This document shows, one piece after another, positions 2,736-44,478 of a stretch of DNA of 64,000 nucleotides (position 1 is the first letter of the stretch; each line of letters starts with the position of its first letter). The translations under genes were made by a program, and so were the position numbers. The notes under the pieces were generated by a model. It searched no databases, was not told where the DNA came from, and saw only the letters and a program-made list of their open reading frames with translations. The stretch comes from Sphingobium sp. EM0848 (GTDB lineage Bacteria; Pseudomonadota; Alphaproteobacteria; Sphingomonadales; Sphingomonadaceae). The stretch spans positions 62,001-126,000 of the forward strand of contig NZ_JABXWB010000001.1 of NCBI RefSeq assembly GCF_013375555.1, written 5' to 3'.

Positions 2736-3584
2736 TCAGCGTCCCTGAAACTGCTTCAGGAAATCATTGTCGCGGGACAGGACCATGCTGGTCGATCCCT
2801 GCTTGTCCGGCGCGAATGTATAGCGATAAGCCTGCATCGCGCGATAGAAATCGTAGAATTGCGCGTCCTTGCCGAAACTTTCCGAATAAATGCGCGCGGC
2901 ATTGGCGTCAGCCTCGGCCCGGATGATCTGGGCCTGCTTGGCGCCCTGGGCGCGGATGGTCAGCGCTTCCTGTTCCCGCGCGGTGCGCATGCGGGTGAAG
3001 GCGCTTTCCAGCGGCGCGCCATCGGGCAGGTCGGCGCGCTTGATCCGCACGTCGACGATCTGCGCGCCATATTGGCGGGCGACGCGGTTCAGCCCCGCCT
3101 CGATATTGTCCATCACCTGGCCGCGCTCGGGCGAGAGCAGGGCCGCGAAGGGACGCTTGCCCAGTTCGTTGCGCAGCGCGGAGCCCAGGATCGGCCGCAG
3201 CGCGTCGGACACGCGTTCCTCGCTGCCCGCCGCAATGTACATGCGCAACGGATCGACGATGCGGTAGCGGGCGAAAGCATCGACCTGCAAGCGCAACTGG
3301 TCGGTGGAAAGCACCTGCTGGCGCTCCATCTCGACCGACAGGACGCGCTTGTCGATCCAGACGATCTGATCGATGAACGGCCAGCGCAGGATGATGCCCG
3401 CGCCGGTCTTGCCGAAATCCTCATTCGGGCGATAGCGGTTGATGATCTTCTTGGGATCGCCGAAGCGCACGATCACGCCCTGCTTGGTTTCGGGCACGAT
3501 GGCGATGGTGCTGCCGATCAGCAGCAACGCGGCGATGGCCAGCAGCGCGAGCGCGACGGGATGACGGACAAGGGTCTGCATCAC
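2736..3584 (-). CDS. hflC: HflC, FtsH-protease modulator (SPFH/band 7 protein)
   Basis: A 282-residue protein with one N-terminal membrane segment (about residues 10-30) followed by a band 7/SPFH domain with the typical run GVIVRFGDPKKI and a long charged coiled-coil-like region (REQEALTIRAQG). HflC pairs with HflK in a large periplasm-facing complex around FtsH that limits its access to membrane substrates. The start codon overlaps the stop of hflK by four bases (ATGA), so the two are translationally coupled. The degP-type gene lies downstream on the same strand. Confidence 0.93.
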   Translation of the reverse strand: MMQTLVRHPVALALLAIAALLLIGSTIAIVPETKQGVIVRFGDPKKIINRYRPNEDFGKTGAGIILRWPFIDQIVWIDKRVLSVEMERQQVLSTDQLRLQVDAFARYRIVDPLRMYIAAGSEERVSDALRPILGSALRNELGKRPFAALLSPERGQVMDNIEAGLNRVARQYGAQIVDVRIKRADLPDGAPLESAFTRMRTAREQEALTIRAQGAKQAQIIRAEADANAARIYSESFGKDAQFYDFYRAMQAYRYTFAPDKQGSTSMVLSRDNDFLKQFQGR

Positions 3585-28937: not shown

Positions 28938-29013
28938 GCCGCTTTAGCTCAGTTGGTAGAGCATCGCATTCGTAATGCGAGGGTCACGTGTTCGAGTCAC
29001 GTAAGCGGCACCA
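28938..29013 (+). tRNA. tRNA-Thr (anticodon CGT), CCA encoded
   Basis: A complete cloverleaf: acceptor GCCGCTT/AAGCGGC, D arm GCTC/GAGC, anticodon stem TCGCA/TGCGA with loop TTCGTAA, T arm ACGTG/CACGT with loop TTCGAGT, discriminator A at 29010, CCA at 29011-29013. The integrase gene starts 95 bases downstream in the same orientation, the standard layout for an island inserted at the 3' end of a tRNA gene. Confidence 0.96.
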
Positions 29014-29034
29014 GCCCCCTCTAAGGGGTTGATT
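29014..29034 (+). terminator. Terminator-like hairpin after tRNA-Thr
   Basis: CCCC-tcta-GGGG-type stem at 29015-29028 followed by a T-rich stretch. It probably ends tRNA transcription and lies in what would be the attachment-site region of the island. Confidence 0.6.
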
Positions 29035-29107
29035 TTCTCAGGAAAACACGGATTTCTGCGGTTTCGGTGCTCGCCAAGGTACATGGCATGGGTACAAGGA
29101 AGCTGCT

Positions 29108-30772
29108 ATGGGATGGCTCGTGAAGCATATCCAGGAACATCCGGGAGGCAGAAAATCCTTCCGCCGTCAATACCCTCCACACCTCCGTCCTTATCTTTCT
29201 GGGACGCAATTGAGGGTCTCCCTGGGCCGTCCTGATTCGCCAGATTTCCACGAGCGGTACGCGAAGGCAGCGCGGCAGTGGGAGGATGACGTGGCGCTCG
29301 CCGAGAGGAAGCACGCGGGGTCCTTTGTGGCCCTCGACGGCCCCACCATATTGCACCTTGCGGCCGCTTTTCATGCTGAGGCTCTGGAGGAGGACGATCA
29401 GGCCCGGTGGGATGCCGAGGAGCGGGAGCAGTTCAAGGCCATCGCCGTCCGTGTGGATGAGGCCGGAGGGGTGAACTCTTGGGCTGGCTCGGAGCGCTCT
29501 CGCTGGGCAGCGAAGGCGCGGGAAACGCAAGCGGCCGCGCTGGCCTCCTGCAAGGCTCTGAAAGCCAGCGGGGACCTTGAAGGCGTCCTGGAGGAATGGA
29601 CTGAGGAGTCCTTGCTCCTAGCCGAGGCTCGGGGTTTTCTTGTCAGTCCCTCCGATCCCCTCCTGCCGGAGCTTTGTCGCGCACTCAACGATGCTGCTAT
29701 ATTGGCATCCCAAGACAGGCTGAAGCGCCTAGAGGGCGAAGACGTGCCGACGCCTGCCGAACCGGAACCCCCTACGACTCCCGCAAAGGCTGCCAGGAAG
29801 AAGGGCGGCGAGGTTCTCCTCATGCCTACCTTCGAGGCCTATGCGACCGCCCAGGGCATCTCGGAAGGGGTCCGCAGGGAATGGCGCAAGTACATCCAAA
29901 GTCTGATCGGGTTCGTAGGCCATGATGACGCCCGGAGGCTGACACGGGACGATGTGGTCGCGTGGCGCGACCATCTCCAGACAACCCCGATGCGGAATGG
30001 TGCGTTACGTAAGCCGGTGACGGTCCGGGATAAGTACATCACGGCCCTGCGCTGCACTCTTGCCTGGGCAACGGAAGAGAAACGCCTAGACGAGAACGTT
30101 GCGTCGGATGTGAAGGTCCGCATCCCGAAGGTGGCTAAGGTCCGGGACAAGGACTTTACCATGGACGAGGCCAAGGCGATCCTCAAGGCGAGCCTTGTGG
30201 CCCCGACTGGCCGCCTCTCGGCTCCGTATGTCAGGGCGCGGCGGTGGATACCATGGCTCTGCGCCTACAGTGGGGCACGGGTGAATGAACTAAGCCAGCT
30301 CCGCAAGGAGGACATATTCCAGTCCGAGGGCGTGTGGGTCATGCGGATCACCCCCGAGGCGGGCAGCGTTAAGACGCGAGAGGCGCGGCTGGTCCCACTG
30401 CACCCGCATGTTATTGAGCAAGGCTTCCTCGGGGTTCTGAAAGGGCTGAACAAGGGGCCGATTTTCTATGAGCCGCTAAACCTTCGTGCGATTGGGGACG
30501 AAATCAAGGGAAACCGCCACGTCAAGAAGGTGGGCGAGCGTCTGGCCGAATGGGTCCGCAAGGACGTGGGCATTACCGATCCGGACATCAAGCCCAACCA
30601 TGCATGGCGGCACCTGTTCAAGACCCTCTCTGCGGACGCCGGAATAGAGGAGCGGGTGGCAGATGCGATCCAAGGCCACGCGCCGGGGACCACGGGGCGT
30701 AAGTACGGGAAGATTTCAGTCCAAGCTAAAGCGGCGGCGCTGGAGCGGTTCCCTCGGTTCAAAGTGGACTGA
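29108..30772 (+). CDS. Tyrosine-family site-specific integrase
   Basis: A 554-residue integrase. The N-terminal 230 residues are a divergent, highly charged part seen in DUF6538-type integrases. Then comes a SAM-like core-binding domain (EYATAQGISEGVRREWRKYI-like run) and the catalytic domain: first Arg in YSGARVNELSQL, His-x-x-Arg in HAWRHLF, a later His in QGHAPGTT and the nucleophile Tyr in TGRKYG. It lies just after tRNA-Thr in the same orientation, as expected for an element that uses the tRNA 3' end. No excisionase is recognisable. Confidence 0.93.
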   Translation: MGWLVKHIQEHPGGRKSFRRQYPPHLRPYLSGTQLRVSLGRPDSPDFHERYAKAARQWEDDVALAERKHAGSFVALDGPTILHLAAAFHAEALEEDDQARWDAEEREQFKAIAVRVDEAGGVNSWAGSERSRWAAKARETQAAALASCKALKASGDLEGVLEEWTEESLLLAEARGFLVSPSDPLLPELCRALNDAAILASQDRLKRLEGEDVPTPAEPEPPTTPAKAARKKGGEVLLMPTFEAYATAQGISEGVRREWRKYIQSLIGFVGHDDARRLTRDDVVAWRDHLQTTPMRNGALRKPVTVRDKYITALRCTLAWATEEKRLDENVASDVKVRIPKVAKVRDKDFTMDEAKAILKASLVAPTGRLSAPYVRARRWIPWLCAYSGARVNELSQLRKEDIFQSEGVWVMRITPEAGSVKTREARLVPLHPHVIEQGFLGVLKGLNKGPIFYEPLNLRAIGDEIKGNRHVKKVGERLAEWVRKDVGITDPDIKPNHAWRHLFKTLSADAGIEERVADAIQGHAPGTTGRKYGKISVQAKAAALERFPRFKVD

Positions 30773-37117: not shown

Positions 37118-38771
37118 CTTAACCCGCCTTATTCGTGACGCTCTCCCTTCTGCCGCTCACTGGCCTTTTGCACCATCGGGCTTATGATCAGGACAAGCGA
37201 TCATGCTGCGTCTATTTCAGCGCGAGTGTCTGATAGGCTTTCGGATTGAGGGACGGGGCTTTGCGGTTCGGCGGCGCGGCCGCGCGGGCTATGTCTGGGT
37301 GGCCCTGAGCGCGGTGGCGATGGTCCGGAACACGGCGGCGTCGGGACAGGCCGAAGCGAAGGCGACCCGGACGCGGGAGGCGGTTTCGATGACGCGGGCG
37401 GCGATCTTGAGAAGCCGCAGGCGCAGGGTTGCGAACTCGGCGGTGGCGAGCGCGGTGGTCTTGGGGATGACCTGCTGGATGCGCCACATTAGCCAGTAGG
37501 CCGCGGTGTGCAGAATGAGCCGCATCTGATTTGCGTTGGCTGATCGGCACGAAGTGCGATCACTGCTGAGCTGTGTCTTGTGCTGTTTGATCAGGTTCTC
37601 GGCCTGGCCGCGGGCGCAATAGAGGCTGTCGTAGATGTGTTCAGCGGAGCCTTCTGCCAGGGAAGTGACGACATAGCGGATATCCATGCCCATGATGCTG
37701 GCTTCGATCCGGGTTACGACGCGGCGCTGGCATTTCCAGCTTTTCGCCCCATAGCGGATCTCGGCATAGCTGCGCAGGACAACCCGGTCTTGCTCGGCGC
37801 GCTTGACGGCGCAGGCATCAGCGGCAGCGACAATGTCTGTATTGGCGCGCAGCGCGGCATTGGTGGGAAGGCCGAAGACATAGTCGATGCCGTGCGCCTC
37901 GCAGAAGGCCATGACCTCTGGCCGGCCATAATGCCCATCGCCGCGGATGGTGATGTGCGTTTGCGGCCAATGCCGACGGATATGCCGGACAAGCCGTCGA
38001 ATGTGCCCCGCAGCCTCCGCGCCTGACGGCGTCTTGCCGGTACGCAGCAGCATGGCGACCGGCCGTCCCGTCGCCGTGTCATAGATGTGGATCGGCAGGA
38101 AGCAGCGCTCGCCGTGATGGCCGTTCCAGAACGAAAGCTGTTGGTAGCCATGCACGACATCACACGTATCATCGATGTCCAGTATCACCGCCTTGGGCGG
38201 CTCGGGGTAGCTGGCGCAGTAGATGCCGACCATCGCGACCAGCATCCGCGCCAATTCGCGCGTGGTCGGCGCATTCTCCCAGCGGCTCATTGTCGGCTGG
38301 CTCGCCAGGCCTGCGCCTGAACCCAACAGTTTGCCCAGCGCCAGGCGAAAGCCTGGGTCGTCGCGCAGGGCGTCGAGATCATCGGCATCCTCGTAGCCGC
38401 AGGCAATAGCCAAAACCCGCGCTCGCAGAATGTCATCGAGCCTGTGGGTCACACGGGAAGGATCGCGCGGATCGGCAATGCAGGTGGCGAGCTGCCGGCA
38501 GATACCCATCTCGCGCTCGGCTTGCGCCAGTAGCAAAACCCCGCCGTCCGAGGTCAACCGGCCACCATCAAAGGCGGCCGTGACTTTCTTGCGCGCGACC
38601 GCTGGAAACGAAATCAGAGGCGCGCTATCGTCGCCCCCGGCGGGTGTGGCCTGTGGCATTTTTTGCCTCGTTGCAGGTTGGTCTAGACATCCAATTTCCT
38701 ACAACAAGACAAAGTCTTACGCCACTCCCGCCACCCCTTCACGTCCAGCCTCATGAATACGACGGGTTAAG
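37118..38771. mobile_element. IS1380-family insertion sequence
   Basis: One transposase gene bounded by imperfect inverted repeats: CTTAACCCGCCTTATTCGTG at the left and the complement of CTTAACCCGTCGTATTCATG at the right. No clear target duplication was found. It lies between the Bro-N fragment and the helicase-like gene whose frame is open up to its right border. Confidence 0.85.
37289..38659 (-). CDS. IS1380-family transposase
   Basis: A 456-residue DDE transposase of the IS1380 group. Visible landmarks are SDGGVLLLAQAEREMG near the N-terminus, VILDIDDTCDVVHG (first Asp region), IRGDGHYGRPEVM (second Asp) and CARGQAENLIKQHKT (Glu region). Full length for the group and with no internal stop, so it may be active. 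Confidence 0.93.
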   Translation of the reverse strand: MPQATPAGGDDSAPLISFPAVARKKVTAAFDGGRLTSDGGVLLLAQAEREMGICRQLATCIADPRDPSRVTHRLDDILRARVLAIACGYEDADDLDALRDDPGFRLALGKLLGSGAGLASQPTMSRWENAPTTRELARMLVAMVGIYCASYPEPPKAVILDIDDTCDVVHGYQQLSFWNGHHGERCFLPIHIYDTATGRPVAMLLRTGKTPSGAEAAGHIRRLVRHIRRHWPQTHITIRGDGHYGRPEVMAFCEAHGIDYVFGLPTNAALRANTDIVAAADACAVKRAEQDRVVLRSYAEIRYGAKSWKCQRRVVTRIEASIMGMDIRYVVTSLAEGSAEHIYDSLYCARGQAENLIKQHKTQLSSDRTSCRSANANQMRLILHTAAYWLMWRIQQVIPKTTALATAEFATLRLRLLKIAARVIETASRVRVAFASACPDAAVFRTIATALRATQT

Positions 38772-38891: not shown

Positions 38892-40505
38892 ATGGTCCAG
38901 ATGCTTTCTGGTCCATCTCCAAGCCCCGTCTTTCATTTGGCGTCACTCGACCCAGGGACCGGAAAGACGGAAGCGCTGTGTTCATTCCTGAAGACCTGGA
39001 AGGATGCCAGCTTTCAGCCCTCCGGAGGCGCTCTTATCGTCCTCGCCACCTACGACGAAATCGCAAGCTGCATATCCCGCTCTGGCCTCGCTCCGATCGA
39101 CTACGCTGTCCTCGTCACTGATGGGCACGAGTTGAACGGCAGGGGCTTGCAGGTCCCCGAGGCTGCCCCCGTTCTCTTCACGACCCAAGAGATGCTCCGC
39201 AGGCGCTGCCAGGGCCGATCGTTCGCCGACGTGGCCGAGCTGCACTTCAAGGGCGCTCCCCGGTCCCTTCGCGTCTGGGACGAGGCTTTCCTCCCGGCTT
39301 CCCCGGCGACCCTCCGCAAGGATGCCCTGGTCCAGCCGCTGGAAGACTTCAGGCTCCACGCCTCCCGAGCGGCGATGACCGTCCTGGACGCCCTCTCAGA
39401 CTCCATGAGGGCCGAAAGCGTCGGCGAGGTGGTCGAGGTGCCCGAAGCTGCCGAGCACGCCCACAAAGCCCTACAGGGGCGCTACAAAGACCCCGCCGAA
39501 AAGTGGGCTGCCCTGACGACCCTCGCAGGCAAGGAGGCAGTCGTCTCTGCCTGCAATCAGAAGGGCCTGCACCTCGTGGGGGCCGCCATGCTGCTCCCTG
39601 CCGACTTCGCCCCCGCTCTGATACTCGACGCCTCCGGCAGGGTCCGCGAGACCTACAGGAGCCTTGAGGCCAGCGGGAAGCTCAAGCGCCTCGCCAGCGC
39701 CCCAATGGACTACAGGAATCTCCACATCCGCCACTGGGACCGCTCGGCCAGCCGTTCGGCGATGGACGACCCTCAGGCCCGCCAGGAGGTCCTTGAGGGA
39801 ATAGCCCAGGCCATCAACGTCAGCGGCGCAGACGAGCCGTGGCTGATCGTCCATCACAAGGCACGGGACGGCCAGGGCTACGACATCCTGCAGGACCTGG
39901 GCGAGCTGATAGACGGCCCCCAACGCCTCGCAGGTATCCACTGGGGCAACCATCACGGAACCAACGAATACCGCGACATCCGCCGCGTGGTCGTCCTGGG
40001 GCCGTGGAGTTTCCCGCAGCCTGCCTATTCGGCCCTGCATGTCGCCGCTGGGGGGCCGCTGGAGCTGGCGACCGATAAGCCGACCCTGGACGCCGTCAAG
40101 CGCGGGGAGCACGCTCACCACCTCTTGCAGGCCATCTGCCGCGCCTCGGTCCGTAAGGGGTCTGGGGGCATCTGCGGGGACTGTGAGGTCCTGGTGGTCG
40201 GGAAGCTCGGACCGGAAGCCACTGGCCTCCTGGAGGAGACCTTCCCCGGCGCTCATGTGTCCGGCTGGACGCCTGCGGGGATGGAGCTGAAAGGCAGCGC
40301 CCTCAAGGTCGCTCGGGCCGTGGAGGACGCCTTGACGCTCTCAGGGGACCATGCGGTTCCTAAGGGGGCCATTCGGGCGGCTCTGGGCTGGGGGACCAAC
40401 GAGGCCTTGGCTAAGGTCCTGCGGCGGGCCGACTTCAAAGCCTGGGCAGCCAAAGAGGGCCTGGAGGTGACGAAGTGGGCTATCGGGAGACGCGAGGCCG
40501 CTTGA
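38892..40505 (+). CDS. Helicase-like P-loop ATPase of the island (5' end disturbed)
   Basis: A 537-residue protein from ATG 38892. Walker A is DPGTGKTEAL (residues 20-29). A motif-Ia-like VLFTTQEML (94-102), a Walker B-like RVWDEAF (127-133, DEAF rather than DEAD or DEAH), an LDASGR segment (245-250) and a motif-VI-like QAICRASVRKG near 414 follow. This order fits a superfamily 1/2 helicase-type ATPase of the sort found in phage and satellite replication modules. The frame stays open upstream all the way to the IS1380 border at 38771 (SDRSQELLSGALSNLK...), so the natural N-terminus probably lies beyond the IS. Its closest role is unknown. Confidence 0.65.
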   Translation: MVQMLSGPSPSPVFHLASLDPGTGKTEALCSFLKTWKDASFQPSGGALIVLATYDEIASCISRSGLAPIDYAVLVTDGHELNGRGLQVPEAAPVLFTTQEMLRRRCQGRSFADVAELHFKGAPRSLRVWDEAFLPASPATLRKDALVQPLEDFRLHASRAAMTVLDALSDSMRAESVGEVVEVPEAAEHAHKALQGRYKDPAEKWAALTTLAGKEAVVSACNQKGLHLVGAAMLLPADFAPALILDASGRVRETYRSLEASGKLKRLASAPMDYRNLHIRHWDRSASRSAMDDPQARQEVLEGIAQAINVSGADEPWLIVHHKARDGQGYDILQDLGELIDGPQRLAGIHWGNHHGTNEYRDIRRVVVLGPWSFPQPAYSALHVAAGGPLELATDKPTLDAVKRGEHAHHLLQAICRASVRKGSGGICGDCEVLVVGKLGPEATGLLEETFPGAHVSGWTPAGMELKGSALKVARAVEDALTLSGDHAVPKGAIRAALGWGTNEALAKVLRRADFKAWAAKEGLEVTKWAIGRREAA

Positions 40506-40600
40506 GGGCGGCTAGGTCCCTCTCGGGCTTGCTGCCGCGCCGGTTCTTCATGCCTGACCACCACACAGTGGAATGTGTCTCTCGAATCTAGGATTTTCGC

Positions 40601-40674
40601 GCATCTCATATGCGAGATAACCCTTGCCTTTTGCATTGGGTGTGAGGATTATCGCGTCTCTGAGATGCGGGATA
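40601..40674 (+). promoter_or_regulatory. Paired inverted operator-like sequences before the AbiEi-HipA gene
   Basis: Copy 1 at 40597-40620 contains ATCTC-atatgc-GAGAT. Copy 2 at 40649-40672 contains CGCGTCTC-t-GAGATGCG. Copy 1 read on the minus strand (TTATCTCGCATATGAGATGC) matches copy 2 (TTATCGCGTCTCTGAGATGC) at most positions, so they form a head-to-head pair about 50 bases apart. Copy 2 ends only a few bases before the start codon. An autoregulatory site for the DNA-binding domain of the encoded protein is likely. Confidence 0.6.
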
Positions 40675-40678
40675 TTCT

Positions 40679-42532
40679 ATGGCGATTCATCTTGTTGGCG
40701 AGACGGTCGATGCCAAACGTGCGCACCAACGTGCGCAGGCGGGCGAACTCGTCCAACTCATGCGGGGCATCTACCTCGAACAGGATGTGGATGCCGACGC
40801 CGCTGTTATCAACCATGCGGTCCGCATAGCGCATTATCTCTATCCCAAGGCTTATCTCTCATCAGCGAGCGCGGCGCTGCTTGCCCCCACGCCGGACGGA
40901 CGGCTGTTCATCAGTGGGCGTCGCAATCAGCGGACCCGGATACGTAGCCTGGAGATCGTTCAGAACGAGGCGCCGCCGCATCCCTCGACAGCCATGGCGG
41001 TGGTCGGCGATGACCTAGGCGAATTGAGGGTCGATGTCTCTTCACCGAGGCAGCGCTTCCTCGAAGCCTTTCGCATGCGCAGCGAACATGCCAGCGCGAT
41101 CACGGTCGAGATGCGCGTACAGATGGCTGCGCGTTTAGTCGAGGAGCATGGCGCGCCCAAAGAAGCCGCCGATGCTGTCTGGGCGTTGGCGCGCGAGAAT
41201 GGCTGGTATCGTGAAGGCGAAAGTGCCGAACGCTTCCTTCTGGCGCAACCGGGAACGGTCAAGGCACCCGCGAACAAGGCCGCACTTGATCTGCTGGTCG
41301 CCTGGCATGGCGAACCGCTCGGGCGCCTGAGGCACGATGGTTTTGAATGGCGCTGGAAGCCGGCGAGGCGCTCAGGACCGGCGCTGGTTCGCGAGACCAC
41401 TCCGGGCAAACTCCCGGCCTTTGTCGAATCGCTGCTGCCGGAAGGTTGGCTGGCCCAGGTGCTGCATGAGCGCGACGACCGCGAGGCACTCAAGCGTGGG
41501 CGGCGCTATATGTCCAATATCACCGTGGTCGAGGCCCGAAACGAGTTGGCGGCCCTCCCGGCGGATATCCTGACGACGAGATTGGACGGCTTCGTCGAGG
41601 TTGGTCGCTTCACCGGCAGCTACGAGGGGCCGACGCGCGGCGCGATCGACGAAAATTTCGAGCAGAATCTCGCGCGGATCTTTGCCCGCGCCGAGACGCC
41701 GCGTCTGTCTGGCGTCCAGATTAAGGCGCCGATGCACCTCGCAGCCGACGGCGCTCTGCTGCCGGCCATTGACCTGCCATTCACCCATATCCTGAAGCCT
41801 GCGGGGACGGCGGGCTTCGAGATGCTGCCGATCGTCGAGTGGCTCTGCCTGGCGCTGGGCCGCGCAGCCGGCTTTGATGTGCCCGATATCGCACTGGCCC
41901 CGATGCCGGACGGCATGTCGCCCGCGCTCATCGTCGAGCGTTTCGACATTCGCAGTGGCGCGGGCGATCAGCGCCGGCTCGCGCTGGAGGATTTCTGTTC
42001 GGTCCTCGATCTCCCGGCATCGGCGAAATATGACGGCACGATCGAACGCATGGCACGCGGGCTGCGGCCGCTCTCAACAGATCCCGCCGCCGACCTCGAC
42101 ATTCTGTTTCGCCGCGCGGTGTTCGCCTGGCTGATCGCTGACGGAGATATGCATCTCAAAAATCTCGCACTCCTCAAGATCGTCGAGCCCGAGGTAAAGG
42201 TCTTCACGTCGGTTCGGTTCGCGCCGCTCTATGATGCGGTCACGACGCGGGTCTTCCCAGGCCTGGGCGGCGACCGGATGGCGCTCAAGCTTAACGGCAA
42301 GGATGATCGGCTGACGCGCCGAGATTTCATGGCGCTGGCGCGCACTATAGGTTTGCCTCGAGACGACGCAGAGAGAGCCATCGCCGAACTGATCGACCGC
42401 CTGACAAACGCCGTGGAGATCGTCAGGCTGCCGGGCTTCGCATTGGAACCCGAGGCTGCCGCCACTGTTCAAGGCCAAGTGCTGGCGCTTGCCGGCGAGC
42501 GCTGCGCTGCGCTCGCCGGCAATGCAGATTAG
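40679..42532 (+). CDS. AbiEi-type antitoxin domain fused to a HipA-family kinase
   Basis: A 617-residue protein. Residues 1-100 resemble the winged-helix N-terminus of AbiEi-type (type IV) antitoxins: GELVQLMRGIYLEQD, then AHYLYPKAYLSSASAALLAP. Residues 100-195 are helical. Residues 203-285 match the HipA N-terminal subdomain (VAWHGEPLGRLRHD, LVRETTPGKLPAFVESLLPEGW). The kinase core has the P-loop-like RLSGVQIKA (342-350), FTHILKP, the catalytic ADGDMHLKN with Asp490 and Asn495, and the metal Asp519 in APLYDA. HipA kinases phosphorylate aminoacyl-tRNA synthetases or other targets and stop growth; a separate HipB normally represses and neutralises. No hipB is adjacent. The N-terminal part may replace it. 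Domain boundaries for the first 200 residues are my reading without a search. Confidence 0.75.
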   Translation: MAIHLVGETVDAKRAHQRAQAGELVQLMRGIYLEQDVDADAAVINHAVRIAHYLYPKAYLSSASAALLAPTPDGRLFISGRRNQRTRIRSLEIVQNEAPPHPSTAMAVVGDDLGELRVDVSSPRQRFLEAFRMRSEHASAITVEMRVQMAARLVEEHGAPKEAADAVWALARENGWYREGESAERFLLAQPGTVKAPANKAALDLLVAWHGEPLGRLRHDGFEWRWKPARRSGPALVRETTPGKLPAFVESLLPEGWLAQVLHERDDREALKRGRRYMSNITVVEARNELAALPADILTTRLDGFVEVGRFTGSYEGPTRGAIDENFEQNLARIFARAETPRLSGVQIKAPMHLAADGALLPAIDLPFTHILKPAGTAGFEMLPIVEWLCLALGRAAGFDVPDIALAPMPDGMSPALIVERFDIRSGAGDQRRLALEDFCSVLDLPASAKYDGTIERMARGLRPLSTDPAADLDILFRRAVFAWLIADGDMHLKNLALLKIVEPEVKVFTSVRFAPLYDAVTTRVFPGLGGDRMALKLNGKDDRLTRRDFMALARTIGLPRDDAERAIAELIDRLTNAVEIVRLPGFALEPEAAATVQGQVLALAGERCAALAGNAD

Positions 42533-42841: not shown

Positions 42842-43062
42842 CGCCTAAAACCGCCAAAAAGGTCCGGGGGTAAGTGCGGGGGTATCGGTCAACTTGACTT
42901 TTCGCAAAGACGAAAAATAAGCTAAATCAAGGCACTATTCGAGGATCGTAAGCCACCAGTACCTTGGCCTTATCGGCCGGATTTTCCGTATCGCTCCGGC
43001 GAGGGCCGCCTTGCGATGATCGGCTGATATTTCGAGATGGCACCGGTGCAAGGGACGGTGCG

Positions 43063-43392
43063 ATGAGCCAGATCACGGTAATTTCGGGGCCGGAGCGGCG
43101 GCGGGTATGGAGCGACCAGCAGAAGCGCGAGTTGGTGGCAGCAGTTTCGGCGCCCGGCGCGAATGCAGCGGAGATTGCCCGCCGTGCTGATCTGCGGCCG
43201 AACCAGATCTACAGGTGGCGGTGACAGATGGAGCAGGCAGCGCGGGGCTTTGCCGAGGTGCAGCTACAAGCTGATCCGGCACCAGTGACCGGATCGGCGA
43301 TCACCGTGGAGTTTGAGCGGGTGATTGCGCGCATCCCCGCTGGCGCCACGCCTGGGCTGGTGTCGGCAGTGCTGCGGTCGGTCAAGCCGTGA
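43063..43392 (+). pseudogene. tnpA: IS66 tnpA with an internal stop
   Basis: MSQITVISGPERRR... reads through the HTH part (ANAAEIARRADLRPNQIYRW) to TGA at 43222-43224, then continues in frame (QMEQAARGF to LVSAVLRSVKP) to a normal stop at 43390. One base change, CGA to TGA, explains the break. Its stop overlaps the tnpB GTG start. Confidence 0.75.
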
Positions 43393-43626
43393 TCCCAGTC
43401 CCCTCTGGCGTTCGGATATGGATCGCGACCGGGCACACGGACATGCGGCGCGGTATGCACAGCCTGGCCTTGCAAGTGCAGCAGAGTTTCGGGCGTGATC
43501 CCTTCGCTGGGAATCTGCCACGCGAGCGCGTCGTCATCGCCGCGTCCGAGGCCTGTCCCTGCTGCGGTTCGGATCGGCTGTGCAAGCTGGGTGAGGTTAT
43601 CACCGAGACGCTTCAGGTGGTGCCGC
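43389..43626 (+). pseudogene. IS66 tnpB-tnpC deletion fusion
   Basis: A GTG-started frame begins as TnpB (MIPVPSGVRIWIATGHTDMR, MHSLALQVQQSFGRDPF) and after about 42 residues continues as a TnpC segment (RVVIAASEACPCCGSDRL, KLGEVITETLQVVPR). The rest of both genes is missing at the junction, which marks an internal deletion. Beyond about 43626 the sequence is in inverted orientation. Confidence 0.7.
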
Positions 43627-44478
43627 GATCAGCAGGTAGAGCGGCATCAGCGCCGCAGTGCAGGTGCCGACCTGATCGGCCAGGGTGGAAAGGCTCAGGT
43701 CCACGCCTTCCCGGGCATAGCGATCACGCTGGCGGTTGAGCGGTTGATGCGCGCCGAACTTCTCGAACAGCAGCATCGCCAGGAAGCTGGGGCCCAAGAG
43801 TCCTCGGGGCGTGACGTGGAAAGGCGCCCGCAGCAGCTTCTCACCAATGGCCTTGGTCGCCGCGGACATGCTACCCCCCATGCGCCTGAAGATGTTGGCG
43901 ATGGCGCCTTCGGAGATGGTCAGGCCGAGCAACTCGGCGGAAATACGTGACAAGCGCTCGAAGCCGACATGATGGCTGTGATGCAGATAGGTCAGCAGCG
44001 AACGGATGCCGGGGCCGAACGGCGTTCCCGGCTCCATGCCCAATGGCGCCGGGGCACGATAGCGCTTGCCACATCCGCCACAACGACCACCAAACAGCTC
44101 TATCCGCGTCACGGTCGGACGGATCGGCGGCAGATCAATATGGTCGTAGCGGTGACGGCACCGCTGCGTCTGACCCGATACGTCCGTTCCGCAATGGCCA
44201 CAGGTGGCGGCGATCTTGTCCGGCGTCTTGGCAAGCGGCCGGACTTTGCCTTTGCGCGAAGGGCGCTTGCCCGTCGTCCGCTTGCGCGACTTCTTCCCCT
44301 TGCCAAATCCGTCCTTCGAAGGCGGAATATGCGAATTGGACGACGTCTTGCGCGGCTTGCCCACCAGCGCCTCAAGCTCGGATATCCGCGAAACCAAGCG
44401 CTCGATCATCTCCTGCTGTTGCGCCAGCAGGGCGTCCTTCTCGGCCTCACTCAGCCCAATGCGCGGTGGCGTCGCCAT
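43600..44478 (-). pseudogene. tnpC: Chimeric IS66 TnpC fragment
   Basis: A 292-residue frame. Residues 1-205 match one IS66 transposase type: the leucine-zipper-like ISELEALVGKPRKTSSNSH, a zinc-like TCGHCGTDV and the GGRCGGCGKRYRA pair. From about residue 220 it switches to another TnpC type (GLLGPSFLAMLLFEKFGAHQ, GVDLSLSTLADQVG). The DDE catalytic core is absent and the tail ends abruptly. A recombination product of two IS66 copies, not a functional transposase. Confidence 0.7.

Follow-up and report, generated by a model that had tools for sequence, protein, structure and literature searches.

A putative single-chain Hip toxin-antitoxin unit in Sphingobium: a weakly AbiEi-like domain, predicted to read its own operators, joined to a HipS-like domain and a HipA/HipT-type kinase

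The window analyzed here, a stretch of 64,000 nucleotides from Sphingobium sp. EM0848, holds an ORF (40679-42532, + strand) that encodes a protein of 617 amino acids. By its sequence, the C-terminal part of this protein belongs to the HipA/HipT-type Ser/Thr kinases and has its motifs intact; it is preceded by a HipS-like domain and, at the N terminus, by a domain whose similarity to AbiEi appears real but weak (Table 1). The conserved unit consists of two operators and this one gene, without a conserved neighbour. The reading that we favor, at roughly even chances, is a single-chain, HipBST-like, self-repressing kinase toxin-antitoxin system in one polypeptide, in which an AbiEi-type DNA binder would stand in place of HipB; toxicity and inhibition in cis are properties that we infer.

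Table 1. Coordinates of the gene's features and of its upstream region within the window
Feature	Positions	Strand	Residues or remark
Operator 1, 33-bp odd palindrome, 12/16 pairs complementary	40591..40623	.	abuts the -35 element
Proposed -35 element TTGCCT	40624..40629	+	read from the sequence; missing from the list of a generic promoter scan (8/12 matches)
Operator 2, 33-bp odd palindrome, 11/16 pairs	40646..40678	.	ends at the start codon
Proposed -10 element GATTAT	40647-40652		inside operator 2
AbiEi-like domain	40679..41248	+	residues 1 to ~190; end approximate
Proposed recognition helix	40709-40744	+	residues 11-22
HipS-like domain (HipA N-subdomain 1)	41276..41608	+	residues ~200-310
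PEGW motif	41438-41449	+	residues 254-257
HipA/HipT-type kinase	41666..42529	+	residues ~330-617
Gly-rich loop of kinase	41702-41725	+	residues 342-349
DGDMHLKN motif of kinase	42140-42163	+	residues 488-495
D519 of kinase	42233-42235	+	

Relatives were collected from GTDB species genomes, in which 324 stretches matched the pattern and 254 encode relatives. The best 80 of these 254 were taken together with the window copy (L001), and removal of 2 incomplete sequences and 7 near-copies from these 81 left an alignment (A1) of 72 rows. A Pfam search placed the HipA_C match at residues 343 to 577 (E = 1.1e-42; 146.6 bits against a Pfam cut-off of 30.5), catalytic motifs included. K349, K373, E387, D488, D490, H492, K494, N495, and D519, which by comparison with HipA we take to be the catalytic positions, are identical in 72/72 aligned copies, the window copy among them. 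The match and these nine residues bear out the statement of the first-pass annotation that the catalytic residues of HipA are intact. Among solved chains, a HipT (8ezr; E = 7.3e-18) gave the best sequence match, with E. coli HipA behind it (best E = 7.8e-14), and the 617-amino-acid kinase is the one HipA_C match in the host genome (5.64 Mb in 5 contigs). Selection is purifying on all three domains (dN/dS of 0 to 0.33 across 11 pairs). In the Gly-rich loop, R342 occupies the position of HipA Ser150 and HipT Ser57, replacing the usual autophosphorylated serine, and S344 that of HipT Ser59, both in 72/72 copies. Since R342 replaces Ser57 and, according to the available text of PMC10627512, a HipT with an AIS variant lost toxicity, growth toxicity of the kinase is not assured.

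Profile-profile comparison found residues 206 to 610 collinear with residues 8 to 416 of HipA (probability 100), which indicates that N-subdomain 1 is present. The first-pass annotation had taken residues 200 to 617 as a HipA kinase; this stretch is more than a kinase, residues ~200 to 310 being a HipS-like domain. This domain, with its PEGW motif between the AbiEi-like part and the kinase, is new relative to that annotation. Compared alone with HipA N-domains, it reached 41%, against at most 1.4% for 20 controls. When a profile of 40 middle domains was compared with the PDB, the top two matches were both HipS proteins, HI_0666 (E = 0.0029) and HipS of E. coli O127 (E = 0.0055), with PEGWL aligned, and E255 and W257 fall on Glu63 and Trp65 of HipS (chain numbering). 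As described in the accessible part of PMC10627512, Trp65 is wedged at the Gly-rich loop and is essential for neutralising HipT. Trp257 is invariant (72/72), and Glu255 is kept in 71/72 copies. The local score of the window's middle domain was 94 against the HipS of a hipBST operon at L231:1351-3025 and 22 to 51 against 30 HipA N-domains. The operon at L231 is complete and carries PEGW in its HipS and SIS in its HipT loop. Both a sequence match to HipS and the antitoxin Trp motif are thus found, in a domain that sits in the kinase chain, with no separate gene. A W or F is also found at this wedge site in 13 of 29 long HipA kinases that were sampled, which all belong to one deep branch, so the Trp alone is no proof of cis-inhibition; neither residue stands there in the 16 others sampled or in E. 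coli HipA. We consider that the likelier cis-antitoxin would be the HipS-like domain, the AbiEi-like part probably serving mainly as a DNA-binding repressor.

The AbiEi resemblance, which had also been suggested at first pass, stands on PADLOC and profile-profile evidence (71 to 84%), while Pfam AbiEi_4 stays below its cut-off. PADLOC AbiEi models matched residues 1 to 200 of the window protein with an E value of 0.00045; one such model matches 45/48 relatives and another matches 43/48 (best E = 2.3e-5). Profile-profile comparison with 15 AbiEi proteins gave a probability of 70.9%, or 84.2% with a wider query, and aligned residues 8 to 140 with AbiEi 46 to 184, across RGxY and an SSP-type motif; 22 control profiles reached at most 12.3%, and single AbiEi subfamilies, at 0.4 to 14.8%, did no better than the best control. 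Pfam AbiEi_4 matched 5/72 copies (best E = 0.012), the window protein itself being unmatched, and a comparison of the N-domain profile with solved structures returned no believable match (best, MutL at E = 0.51). The domain starts near the recognition helix, the first AbiEi helices being missing. A HipB-type repressor was considered for this position and rejected, as the HipB profile gave 0.5% (hhalign). In the window, whose ORFs of 50 amino acids or more number 426, a profile of three HipB proteins also found none (best E = 0.36), in line with the initial remark that no hipB is present. AbiEii partners were found neither as a conserved neighbour at the relatives' loci nor by a Pfam scan of window ORFs. 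Elsewhere in the host genome, two AbiEi_4-type ORFs of ~200 amino acids, each standing alone, score above the Pfam cut-off at G000:C5:140394-140513 and C2:106764-106874 (L139 and L152).

Directly before the start codon, the first-pass annotation had placed a head-to-head operator pair. The two copies are real; the pair starts at 40591 and not at 40597, and the term head-to-head is empty, each copy being palindromic in itself. They lie 55 bp apart, start to start, and the family operator pattern (up to 3 mismatches) matches the window at these two operators only, with 0 matches in 100 shuffles. The operator-pair score was compared with 20 mononucleotide shuffles per locus at 72 loci; it exceeded the 95th percentile of the shuffles in 68/72 and every shuffle in 59/72. 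The spacing equals 55 bp in 43/72 loci, and a pair at 53 to 56 or 62 to 65 bp was found in 63/72. Among the nine loci outside those spacings, an operator-like pair missed by the scoring is visible by eye in L043, L045, and L080, operator 2 alone seems by eye to be kept in L012, L056, and L064, L074 has unread bases in the operator region, and in L065 and L081 the assigned start codon lies upstream of the family's start. TTG[ACT] occurs between the operators in 60/63 loci and 22 to 23 bp before operator 2 in 52/63, which places the -10 element inside operator 2.

Residues of the N-terminal domain covary with these operators. For information shared with half-site position 4, residues 20, 12, and 17 rank at the top of 617 columns, and position 1 likewise has residue 17 as its best column and position 6 has residue 20. 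The best columns of the remaining half-site positions are scattered throughout the protein; all of these values are inflated by shared ancestry. Where residue 12 is K or R, all four half-sites carry C (17/17 loci), and where it is A or S, fewer than two do, most having T (46/46 loci), so that residue and operators are concordant in 63/63 loci of this first set. In 19 further loci an operator pair accompanies the N-terminal part; 3 of these loci duplicate the first set, and of the remaining 16, 14 are concordant, with L167 and L170 discordant. In this further group, L090 is a borderline case, with two of its four half-sites, the operator pair of L170 is weak, and L092 shares ~97% identity with one member of the first set; L168 lacks an operator pair and L171 lacks the N-terminal part. 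On a tree built without the N-domain, residue 12 and the operator trait each change three times; the well-supported branches carry one independent change pair only, and the sign test is uninformative. We regard this as good evidence that the N-terminal domain would read the operators, with about three evolutionary events behind it, and it fits a putative DNA-reading helix near residues 11 to 22. Together with the promoter geometry, the covariation supports, at the level of sequence, the predicted self-repression that had been proposed from the start.

Similarity to the window's DNA begins at operator 1 for 79/80 loci and runs out in the final stretch of the gene; at the sampled positions none align upstream of it, 50 align at 40600, 18 at 42400, and 7 to 8 past the stop codon. 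When neighbouring ORFs of at least 80 amino acids were clustered over 78 loci, shorter ORFs beside the relatives being left out, no cluster occurred in more than 9/78, and the largest, in 9/78, is an integrase-like ORF at varied places. One group of 17/78 loci shares upstream DNA and one of 11/76 shares downstream DNA, neither piece being in the window. Between 38500 and 44500, no Rfam family was found at E values up to 0.1. A regulon search of the 5.64-Mb genome returned one extra operator-like site, single and without the promoter geometry. This site (G000:C1:2630741-2630769; L199 ~3242-3270) is intergenic and is followed by an ATG-like stretch and no family gene; it may be the relic of a lost gene copy.

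In the working that we propose, the AbiEi-like domain would bind the two palindromic operators framing its own promoter, repress the gene and replace HipB, a step well supported by sequence. The HipS-like domain would restrain the kinase in cis, with Trp257 at the Gly-rich loop like HipS Trp65 on HipT. Judging from the family, the kinase, once this restraint is released, might phosphorylate a translation factor, e.g., an aminoacyl-tRNA synthetase, so that growth stops, and such a stop could serve mobile-element maintenance or phage exclusion. More tentatively, and at less than even chances, the family may be an undescribed one-gene toxin-antitoxin class made of an AbiEi-type repressor, a HipS-type cis-inhibitor and a HipT-type kinase; operator occupancy, self-inhibition and toxicity would be coupled in one molecule, and the kinase would be freed when the DNA of the gene is lost or when a phage acts as trigger. 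A search by title and abstract, with subscription papers and supplements outside its scope, found no published account of a HipA-AbiEi fusion, and the available main text of the main Hip phylogeny (PMC8262856), in which HipH and HipL are described as monocistronic kinases, makes no mention of AbiEi.

Of the known systems, HipBST has a DNA binder, a PEGW HipS-like domain and a kinase in the same order, and the nearest solved chains are HipS and HipT; however, it consists of three genes instead of one chain, its HipB is of the Xre type, and its loop reads SIS where RLS is found here. HipH/YjjJ resembles the window protein as a single gene with a DNA-binding-like N terminus and no antitoxin gene, and a cis-antitoxin has been proposed for it (PMC8262856, in the text available). 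In contrast to the window protein, HipH is described as being without N-subdomain 1. Membership in HipH was rejected, the N-domains being unrelated (1.6 to 2.2% by hhalign) and the kinases distant (19.5%; one HipH sequence on a very long branch); the kinase trees included one HipT and one HipH, had long branches, and the HipH was left out of the second. With HipBA the collinear region (residues 206 to 610) is shared, but no HipB is present here, and W, F, or Y occupies the wedge position in 0/17 kinases of the E. coli HipA type. AbiE likewise has several operator copies overlapping its promoter, as far as the available text of PMC7319586 describes them, besides the domain itself; these are 23-bp inverted repeats 3 or 13 bp apart, whereas the family's are 33-bp palindromes 55 or ~63 bp apart, AbiEii is absent here, and the winged helix is shortened. 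HipL is set apart by its description, with the order kinase, HipS-like domain and HIRAN, the last instead of AbiEi. CapRel (PMC13423816, available text) and the single-polypeptide zeta-type systems (PMC4826407, available text) also unite toxin and antitoxin in one chain, but their enzymes are unrelated to the Hip kinase, and CapRel senses a phage protein, with no known sensing here. How HipH/YjjJ, without an antitoxin gene, stays harmless is posed as an open question in the accessible part of PMC8262856. An invariant HipS wedge motif in cis makes this question of antitoxin-less Hip kinases addressable by a point change, W257A, and two truncations. Moreover, the family offers a set of natural repressor-operator pairs whose specificity has changed, which helps in learning how AbiEi-type domains read DNA.

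Other divisions of labor within the protein have to be weighed. It seems unlikely to us that the AbiEi-like domain is both the repressor and the cis-antitoxin of the kinase, with the HipS-like domain structural only. The AbiEi-like domain is fused to the kinase in every case seen, and AbiEi is both antitoxin and repressor of AbiEii in the available text of PMC7319586; yet the known AbiEi targets are AbiEii nucleotidyltransferases of type IV systems, a HipS-like domain with a known antitoxin motif adjoins the kinase, and no link between the AbiEi-like part and the kinase surface was found. We give a similarly low probability to there being no toxin at all, the protein being a repressor in which the kinase part adjusts DNA binding, e.g., by autophosphorylation of S344, and which would serve a mobile element as sensor or homeostatic switch. 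Operator reading indeed has the best support of any function, control falls mainly on the gene itself, given the one extra operator-like site in the genome, and R342 removes the usual autophosphorylated serine. Against this, no kinase motif has been lost, every domain is under selection, and a repressor of itself alone needs an effector, the kinase being the sole one present.

A kinase toxin held by a separate, unlinked antitoxin or host inhibitor, with the fused domains regulating transcription only, is the most improbable of these alternatives, and we think it very unlikely. E. coli HipA, which has N-subdomain 1, still needs HipB (PMC10627512 and PMC8262856, in the parts available), but the gene passes from one bacterial family to another with no companion, as judged from clustered neighbouring ORFs of at least 80 amino acids, a HipB-like ORF is absent from the window, and the middle domain resembles HipS more closely than it does the N-domains of HipA.

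Some match to the gene was found in 696 plasmid records, 72 of which have a match covering at least 80%, and among the 40 matches listed, 39 are annotated as HipA domain protein or HipA family toxin and 1 is unannotated. Spread is patchy in the taxonomic family, where 6/298 genomes have a copy, the window's own included, and five other genomes of the window's genus among those listed have none. N-domain matches occur in 6/299 phylum genomes, namely, 3 with full copies (the window's included), two in which the match spans 22 residues and one with a pair of short pieces. With up to 4 candidates scored per genome, 28/385 class genomes gave 30 kinase matches. Five of these are intact at 51 to 100% identity, the window's included, and all five lie in frames of 600 to 622 amino acids; the rest are one 47% fragment with a stop and 24 matches at 30 to 36% identity in frames of 316 to 541 amino acids. 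No kinase at 51 to 100% identity without the N-terminal part was seen in the 385 class genomes. Among phage records there was no full-length copy, the one record matched being 39% covered and 28% identical, and one viral contig carries a gene copy (L090:4998-6833). The L090 copy lies near replication O-like, ParB/methyltransferase-like and terminase small subunit genes, with replication-type genes on one side and the terminase gene on the other. As part of the one-gene class reading, and with the same reserve, the gene may have been carried through the Alphaproteobacteria by plasmids, islands and one or more phage-like elements.

In the host, the gene lies on a 3.22-Mb contig, ~11.7 kb beyond a tRNA-Thr gene (28938-29013). 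After this tRNA gene come a tyrosine-integrase-like ORF (29108-30772; E = 1.6e-5, narrowly short of the Pfam cut-off) and an IS21 helper gene, and the kinase gene itself lies between a DDE transposase ORF (37289-38659) and IS66 element pieces (42964-44478), which together place it in a mobile-element region. It is possible that 28938-30772 marks the start of an integrated island holding the kinase gene; no second attachment-like repeat for the tRNA-Thr site was found within the window. Just upstream of the gene lies a 537-amino-acid ORF (38892-40505) for which Pfam gave no match above its cut-off and NCBIfam, PADLOC, and PHROGs gave none at the limits applied. In 6/78 loci, four of them near-copies, a convergent ORF lies 10 to 11 bp 3' of the kinase gene. 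At L010:3952-8932, this ORF matches ZacC and ends 11 bp off, with a ZacB-like gene beyond; ZacC and ZacB belong to the Azaca defence system. The phage-like contig L090 and this ZacC/ZacB neighbour hint at mobile-element or phage biology.
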